A stretch of 64,000 nucleotides of DNA from Pelagibius marinus (lineage in GTDB: Bacteria > Pseudomonadota > Alphaproteobacteria > Kiloniellales > Kiloniellaceae): contig NZ_JACSDK010000019.1 in NCBI RefSeq assembly GCF_014925385.1, positions 62,001-126,000 of the forward strand, given 5' to 3'. The notes beneath the pieces are model-generated. The model did no database searches. It was not told the DNA's origin and worked only from the letters and a program-made list of their open reading frames with translations. The position numbers and the translations under genes were made by a program. This document shows, one piece after another, positions 23,415 through 25,179 of this stretch. The number at the start of each line of letters is the position of its first letter. Positions within the stretch are counted from its first letter, which is position 1.

Positions 23415-24737
<1,323 letters not shown>

Positions 24738-24741
24738 GGGA

Positions 24742-24793
24742 TGGGCCCTTTCAATCAGACAAGTTGACGTTTCTGTTTCCCCGAGGGGCCCCA
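24742..24793 (-). promoter_or_regulatory. Shine-Dalgarno sequestration element of the metY leader
   Basis: On the reverse strand TGGGGCCCCT (24793-24784) can pair with AAGGGCCCA (24750-24742), which contains the metY Shine-Dalgarno bases. Pairing would hide the ribosome site. The element starts about 10 bases after the second SAM aptamer, so aptamer folding could decide whether it forms. The complementarity is visible; the switching is inference. Confidence 0.5.
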
Positions 24794-24802
24794 CCAGGGA
24801 CT

Positions 24803-24853
24803 GGTTTTTAGCTTTTGTTGACGCGGAGCAAGCTACCCCTCAAATCACCGCGG
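24803..24853 (-). promoter_or_regulatory. Second SAM-II-type riboswitch aptamer, proximal to metY
   Basis: The reverse strand carries the SAM-II layout. P1 is CGCGG (24852-24848) with CCGCG (24826-24822). The core GATTTG follows the 5' arm, GCTTGC lies in the loop, and AAAAGCTAAAAA follows the 3' arm. The pseudoknot pairs TAGCTT (24835-24830) with AAGCTA (24814-24809), and GG of the loop with CC after the A-run. The structurally characterised SAM-II aptamer has CC with GG at the same place, a compensatory swap. SAM-V, a close relative, is an alternative name. It lies 65 bases before the metY start, upstream of the ribosome-site sequestration element. Confidence 0.88.
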
Positions 24854-24885
24854 ACCCGTTCGACGGTGGGTCAGGCCTAAGCAAC

Positions 24886-24916
24886 AAAAAAACCGCCACG
24901 GCGCGCCGGGCGGTTT
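24886..24916 (-). terminator. Intrinsic terminator inside the metY leader
   Basis: On the reverse strand AAACCGCC... reads as arms AAACCGCC and GGCGGTTT with an 11-base GC-rich loop, followed by a run of seven T. It sits between the two SAM aptamers with no complete gene upstream on this strand, so it must act on the leader RNA itself. The pseudoknot strand of aptamer 1 contains GCGG, complementary to CCGC in the terminator arm, which offers a simple antiterminator. Confidence 0.88.
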
Positions 24917-24922
24917 CCACCA

Positions 24923-24973
24923 CTCGTTTAGCCGCATTTTTAAAGCGCCCGCAAGCTGAGAACAAATCGGCGC
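24923..24973 (-). promoter_or_regulatory. First SAM-II riboswitch aptamer, upstream of the leader terminator
   Basis: P1 is GCGCC (24973-24969) with GGCGC (24949-24945). GATTTG follows the 5' arm, GCTTGC is in the loop, then TTTAAAAATGCGGCTAAA after the 3' arm, all matching the SAM-II core. The pseudoknot pairs AGCT (24957-24954) with GGCT (24933-24930), and CTC (24960-24958) with GAG (24925-24923). These stems differ in sequence from aptamer 2 yet stay complementary. A terminator begins seven bases later, so this copy probably acts on transcription. Confidence 0.88.
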
Positions 24974-24982
24974 AAGGCCGCG

Positions 24983-25012
24983 ATCAAAGCGCCGAACGGC
25001 CGCTGTTGTCAA
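24983..25012 (-). promoter_or_regulatory. metY: Promoter of the metY leader
   Basis: On the reverse strand TTGACA (25012-25007) is followed after 18 bases by TTTGAT (24988-24983), a reasonable sigma-70 pair. The predicted start, about 24976, falls just before the first aptamer at 24973, which fits a riboswitch transcript closely. Confidence 0.6.
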
Positions 25013-25179
25013 GATTGTTCTGACAGCTGATTAAGTCCGCGGCTCTGCAATCTAAAGGCGGATTCCGATATTGACCTGGAGAGCGTTTTGGCGGACAACT
25101 AAGGCGATTTTGGTCCTAAAAGTATTTCTAGTATTACGGGATTCTTCACAGAGCGTTTTGTACCGGGGATTGGTATTCA

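Follow-up and report, generated by a model that had tools for sequence, protein, structure and literature searches.

SAM-II riboswitches (Rfam RF00521, SAM_alpha; the metA element) are associated with met genes of Alphaproteobacteria and combine a P1 stem and a core bearing the motifs GATTTG, GCTTGC and GCTAAA with a pseudoknot, P2, in which a strand of loop L1 pairs with a strand lying directly past GCUAAA. The available text of two papers describes SAM binding as blocking the ribosome site or terminating transcription (PMC10907184; PMC9373788), with termination in the presence of SAM predicted for the metZ SAM-II of S. meliloti (PMC9373788), and the text of the metA element paper reports terminators after many SAM-II aptamers (PMC1273637). 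Tandem arrangements are also known: as far as its available text goes, one survey lists 44 tandem SAM-II examples, some with a terminator first and ribosome-site control second, together with 149 SAM-II/SAM-V tandems (PMC9481103, 2022). The SAM-II/SAM-V tandem of Ca. Pelagibacter likewise has a transcriptional stage followed by a translational one. SAM-II long loops (RF01726) is a further variant of the SAM-II core, and its consensus has no hairpin past GCUAAA. A hairpin inserted into SAM-II is not described in the text consulted of PMC4239095, PMC9373788, PMC2864571, PMC2258182 and PMC1273637, nor in that of PMC3764141, PMC11508383, PMC10907184 and PMC8632094.

The window considered here is a stretch of 64,000 nucleotides from Pelagibius marinus, and the locus of interest, pointed out by a previous sequence-only reading of this DNA, is the leader of metY (23415..24737, minus strand), which encodes an O-acetylhomoserine sulfhydrylase (TIGR01326, 609.9 bits, cut-off 495.1) and starts at 24737. 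Along the minus strand, the leader presents a CTTGACA box, a SAM-II core, a terminator with its U-tract, a second core, AAAGGG (24751-24746) and the ATG. The three core motifs, said to be kept in both copies, are indeed each found twice on this strand, at 24968-24963, 24956-24951 and 24932-24927 in copy 1 and at 24846-24841, 24833-24828 and 24812-24807 in copy 2, and the core positions that we take to form the SAM-II pocket are unchanged in both. The promoter proposed for this leader is only partly borne out: its -35 box (CTTGACA, 25007..25013, minus strand), followed by a weak -10, is kept in all 7 genus leaders compared, but a consensus scan of 24600-25100 gave no sigma-70 promoter. The order of elements is that of the published tandem SAM-II/SAM-II, with, ahead of a single gene, aptamer 1 before an intrinsic terminator and aptamer 2 near the ribosome site; the text available on the published tandem mentions neither an inserted hairpin nor an opposite sign (PMC9481103). 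A double SAM-II with one transcriptional and one translational stage, which had been put forward as a notable variant, is therefore already in print there. The only match above the Rfam gathering thresholds in the whole window is a tRNA, so a threshold-based annotation would report neither SAM-II copy. A third, weak RF00521 match is present elsewhere in the genome (G000:C10:195546-195630, L003; 17.2 bits, E 0.49).

Copy 1 (24923..24974, minus strand) has the canonical SAM-II layout, with P1 (24973-24969 / 24949-24945), the conserved core and a P2 strand directly past GCUAAA: CUC at 24960-24958 pairs with GAG at 24925-24923, one base beyond this motif, which agrees with the CTC/GAG pseudoknot proposed from the letters of the sequence. 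RF00521 matches it from 24983 to 24907 with 35.9 bits (E 1.5e-6), missing the gathering score of 36 by 0.1 bit, and its identification as a SAM-II aptamer can stand; similar elements occur in the genus and the order, and RF00521 scores above its cut-off in 26 of 58 relative genomes. The intrinsic terminator expected between the copies was recovered as a hairpin and U-tract, AAACCGCC...GGCGGUUU UUUU (24885..24916, minus strand), with a predicted fold of -18.9 kcal/mol, a value with a z of only -1.33 that 23 of 200 shuffles equal. ACCGCC...GGCGGUUU lies 3' of copy 1 in six of the seven genus leaders, the remaining one (L041) having GGCGGCUUU instead. By homology, copy 1 would be an OFF switch acting on transcription, the SAM-bound aptamer letting the terminator at 24916-24885 form so that transcription stops. 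A candidate GCGG/CCGC antiterminator, seen by eye, would join 24935-24932 to the 5' arm of the terminator stem. Some first copies in other genomes have a changed core, with GCTAAG for GCTAAA in L069 (copies 1 and 3), L078 and L081 (copy 1), accompanied by GATTTC in L069 and GATTTA in L081, and by an unchanged GATTTG in L078; these copies stand before genes that look by eye like cysG or cysH, and are then followed by a terminator-like stretch. They could possibly have an altered ligand or be diverged SAM-II.

Copy 2 (24783..24852, minus strand) keeps the SAM-II core motifs and P1 (24852-24848 / 24826-24822), and its L1 strand occupies the same register as in SAM-II, but it is not the plain form. 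It has no P2 3' strand directly past GCUAAA; a hairpin, P3 (ACCAG-UCC-CUGGU, 24793..24805), is inserted there, and the 3' strand (GCCCCUC, 24783..24789), displaced 18 nt beyond GCUAAA, pairs with GAGGGGU in L1 (24835..24841), an L1 strand that is purine-rich, unlike that of SAM-II. Since the P2 3' strand lies past the inserted hairpin, copy 2 extends to about 24783, and not to 24803 as first delimited. The GG/CC pseudoknot that had wrongly been assigned to it beside GCTAAA is possible as two base pairs but is not kept in relatives, which conserve the strand past P3 instead. The window also offers an alternative pairing of six base pairs, wobbles included, to GUCCCU at +6, which was rejected in the same way, as it is not kept in relatives. 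The Infernal comparison with SAM-II and SAM-V suggested by the sequence-only reading leaves both copies under the RF00521 threshold, copy 2 with 21.8 bits against 36 (E 0.011, 24861-24784), and RF01726 gives copy 2 17.0 bits against 44.

In its order, a terminator-linked SAM-II followed by an element linked to the ribosome site, the leader resembles the marine SAM-II/SAM-V tandem, and copy 2 might on this ground be a SAM-V aptamer; the SAM-V model (RF01826), though, has no match in the leader, nor in the whole genome at E<=10, which refutes the idea at the level of sequence models and leaves it with almost no credence. The second element of this leader thus differs from that of Ca. Pelagibacter, and the core motifs, the RF00521 matches and the missing RF01826 match uphold the claim of two SAM-II-type aptamers flanking a terminator. 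Copy 2 is recognized by R1, a covariance model that has P1 and the four outermost pairs of P3 but no P2, and that was trained on 14 sequences (set A3), all from outside the genus. In the genome of the window, copy 2 is the sole R1 match at E<=1 (41.2 bits, E 6.6e-7), and because a model built without this genus finds copy 2 alone, the element is more than a chance resemblance. Copy 2 is best described as a relative of SAM-II with an inserted hairpin, and not as the plain form. Across this form, the best P2 strand after GCUAAA lies at +17 to +19 in most of the metY group and mostly at +16 to +38 elsewhere, as against +1 to +5 in copy-1 elements in which the script detected one; for several copy-1-type elements (e.g. 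L047, L050, L051), it gave no clear adjacent P2. P2 and P3 probably form a three-way junction in the hairpin-insert form.

The displaced pseudoknot and the inserted hairpin were assessed in alignment A5, which holds 90 aligned R1 matches (88 distinct) from 87 of the 100 sources of A4, at a stricter E-value. Matches with long or odd P3 inserts and near-repeats were dropped (L058, L071, L096, L100, L101, L112, L135, L175, L192, L203, L213, L221, L222), and as these omissions were chosen, the counts of pairs apply to the regular members of the hairpin-insert family. A5 was made with R1, which has no P2, so the counts for P2 are not fitted to P2. With P1, displaced P2 and P3 taken together, 92.7% of cells are paired, against 88.1 +/- 0.4 after shuffling, and, in controls that retain sequence relatedness, double-sided changes occur in 12 of 16 pairs against 5.4 +/- 1.2, with a covariation score of 0.179 against 0.107 +/- 0.005 that none of 500 shuffles reached. 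Sliding the partners lowered this score to 0.09 or less. Double changes affect four of the five P2 pairs and five of the six P3 pairs, and P2 is the weakest helix, its 79.3% of paired cells lying below P1 and P3. The L1 loops are also coupled to their own P2 strands: among the 98 loci left once repeats had been removed from the best 104 of 119 A4 rows, 78 have a P2 score of at least 9, against 64.0 +/- 2.5 with loops permuted (maximum 71 in 500 permutations, a control that again retains sequence relatedness), the pair types including GGGC/GCCC, GAGC/GCUC, GGGAGC/GUUCCC and GATGGAGC/GCUCCGUC.

These data bear on the possibility of copy 2 being a relic, or else a constitutive structure of the mRNA with no response to SAM. 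Its low RF00521 score would fit such an origin, as would a P3 that departs from the consensus CCAC/GUGG and a copy-2 leader whose free fold is no more stable than its shuffles (z 0.06). Yet all three core motifs are intact in seven of the eight genus genomes, P1, P2 and P3 covary across the hairpin-insert subfamily, and P3, which reads CCAC...GUGG in other members of the genus, shows compensatory changes in its family, the change from CCAC/GUGG to CCAG/CUGG in the closest relatives of the window preserving the stem. A relic is therefore improbable. From sequence comparison, the tandem leader is real, conserved and functional-looking, and it very probably represents a two-stage SAM-II architecture with a hairpin insert in its second aptamer.

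The hairpin-insert form is widely distributed. R1 has matches at E<=0.01 in 102 of 386 Alphaproteobacteria, the weakest of which may be canonical SAM-II or noise, and at E<=0.001 in 36 of 58 near relatives, including seven of the eight genus genomes. The eighth (G003) has neither element, and as its best metY-like proteins are only 48% and 47% identical to that of the window, it is uninformative about loss of the tandem. Genomes with the copy-2 core pattern, found in 43 stretches of named genomes, include those of Pelagibius, Tistlia, Thalassobaculum, Dongia, Ferrovibrio and Micavibrio. In a count based on 74 RF00521 matches, which omits weak ones and contigs with no R1 hit, 31 of 55 R1 hits, in 30 of the 58 near genomes, are preceded by an RF00521 match at a distance of 60-260 nt. 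No such match was counted for the remaining 24, although some of these have a diverged upstream copy (e.g. L069, L078 and L081, with their GCTAAG cores) and one (G045:C96:2342-2421, 35.2 bits) probably represents copy 1 in its canonical form. Since the hairpin-insert form is widespread and often occurs alone, the tandem is better read as two old subfamilies that were joined than as a local duplication. Rfam thresholds catch two (L154, L176) of the 21 R1 elements in 20 chosen loci, and among near relatives, hairpin-insert elements in G053:C73 (42.5 bits) and G046:C61 (39.1) also pass. L069 contains two consecutive double SAM-II leaders about 1.1 kb apart, the genes behind them looking by eye like cysH in one case and cysG in the other.

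How copy 2 might act on translation can be approached through the Shine-Dalgarno region, AAAGGGCCC (24743..24751, minus strand). In the minimum-free-energy fold of the window leader, GGGCCC (24748-24743) can pair with GGGCCC at 24791-24786, part of P2, and relatives show a partner pattern of this kind. Folding was done with RNAfold, which disregards pseudoknots, SAM and kinetics, on 70 of the 98 loci, the other 28 being excluded for want of a start codon within 110 nt or of a usable P3 or P2, or for spacing; start codons and leader peptides were called heuristically, and a truncated cysG accounts for at least one 'leader' (L030). The Shine-Dalgarno makes 6.1 expected pairs with the P3/P2 strand, compared with 3.5 +/- 0.27 when leaders are swapped between loci, and its accessibility in the free fold is 0.282 against 0.364 +/- 0.017; once P3 is imposed and pairing of the P2 strand is masked, native and swapped leaders are equally accessible (0.485). 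Relative to their own shuffles, 55 of the 70 loci lie above the mean for this pairing and 15 do not, and in 27 the native value is matched by no more than 10% of the shuffles. For the window alone, the pairing is no better than chance, 75% of shuffles reaching the native value, and the ribosome site shows no loss of accessibility relative to shuffles (0.25 vs 0.16). A terminator-like hairpin with a U-tract within 330 nt was found in just 3 of the 98 loci, one of which (L166) is the Shine-Dalgarno hairpin itself, and the idea that the hairpin-insert form works through termination was rejected. In the cysG group, the 5' extension (GGACCCGCGG) looks by eye as if it could form an anti-aptamer helix with the P3/P2 strand (CCGUGGGCCC), an idea dropped because the 5' ends of Cys-leader loci look non-complementary by eye.

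In the proposed second stage, P3, inserted between GCUAAA and the P2 3' strand, would supply together with that strand an anti-Shine-Dalgarno sequence. If this strand is shared, the aptamer fold and the hairpin hiding the Shine-Dalgarno would be mutually exclusive and translation would respond to SAM; control of translation by such a competition seems rather probable. Taken literally, binding of SAM to copy 2 would free the ribosome site, and the simplest reading of the folding of the relatives is accordingly an ON stage in which aptamer folding releases the Shine-Dalgarno. The genes behind the element (metY, metX, metZ, metF, cysG and a sulfate-binding protein, all but the metY of the window named by eye) are the usual SAM-repressed set, which conflicts with such a stage, and the SAM riboswitches known to us upstream of genes for methionine or cysteine are all OFF switches. 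With this gene set, the known OFF behaviour of SAM-II and the chance-level result for the window, the ON sign can be considered evenly balanced at best, with OFF as its chief competitor.

The same gene set speaks for a coherent repressor with two mechanisms, in which high SAM would lead to termination of transcription through copy 1 and to a blocked ribosome site through copy 2, an arrangement published as a prediction for tandem SAM-II and SAM-II/SAM-V in the text available (PMC9481103). The folds divide on this point. In many cysG-like and metZ-like loci, the Shine-Dalgarno pairs mainly with the P3 3' strand, and P2 could then persist while the ribosome site is hidden, but in most metY-group loci, including the window, and in most short-ORF loci, the main partner is the P2 strand itself, so that hiding the ribosome site would break the pseudoknot. 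Direct occlusion as in classical SAM-II also misfits copy 2, because its P2 3' strand consists largely of pyrimidines and stops 31 nt short of the Shine-Dalgarno of the window. Repression at both steps is conceivable but somewhat doubtful. Two-stage SAM-II control with competition between the copy-2 aptamer and the Shine-Dalgarno, taken as a whole, has in our estimation about an equal chance of being right or wrong. Were the ON sign true, the metY tandem would act as a SAM band-pass, an output whose benefit is hard to name.

In other Alphaproteobacteria, some copies of the hairpin-insert SAM-II are immediately followed by a short ORF whose Cys codons gather close to the stop codon, as in endings such as MTTCCP, ...SCCC and ...CCCR. 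By eye, at least two Cys fall within the last dozen residues in 17 of 31 short-ORF loci (L127, L168 at 1842-1922, L172, L173, L176, L178, L179, L184, L188, L195, L198, L199, L201, L204, L206, L212 and L221), and there are further cases such as L196. At E<=0.01, R1 has seven matches in genome G427, of which six lie on contig C116 within about 25 kb; several of those at about 73-97 kb (L168, L173, L175, L180, L200) precede short Cys-containing ORFs, and the cluster may mark a sulfur gene cluster. From the sequences, it looks as though a SAM switch at these loci gates a leader peptide for attenuation by cysteine, a pairing for which our literature search found no precedent. A broader proposal, which is tentative and on the unlikely side, would have copy 2 belong to an unrecognised, widespread SAM-II subfamily with P3 in its pseudoknot, in which an L1 segment mimicking the Shine-Dalgarno captures the anti-Shine-Dalgarno strand on folding and SAM thereby switches translation ON; behind the SAM-OFF terminator of metY leaders, this would give a SAM band-pass, and in other Alphaproteobacteria the switching on of a Cys-codon leader peptide would make a SAM-and-cysteine gate on sulfur genes.

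As far as our literature search reached, the hairpin-insert form of the second aptamer is new; the double SAM-II is not. This form is common in Alphaproteobacteria and mostly missed by Rfam thresholds, and its existence suggests that a hairpin can be accommodated within the 3' strand of P2 in the SAM-II pseudoknot. It also makes testable the idea that a single aptamer core can serve two steps in the same leader with opposite signs, and it may connect cysteine leader peptides with a SAM switch.
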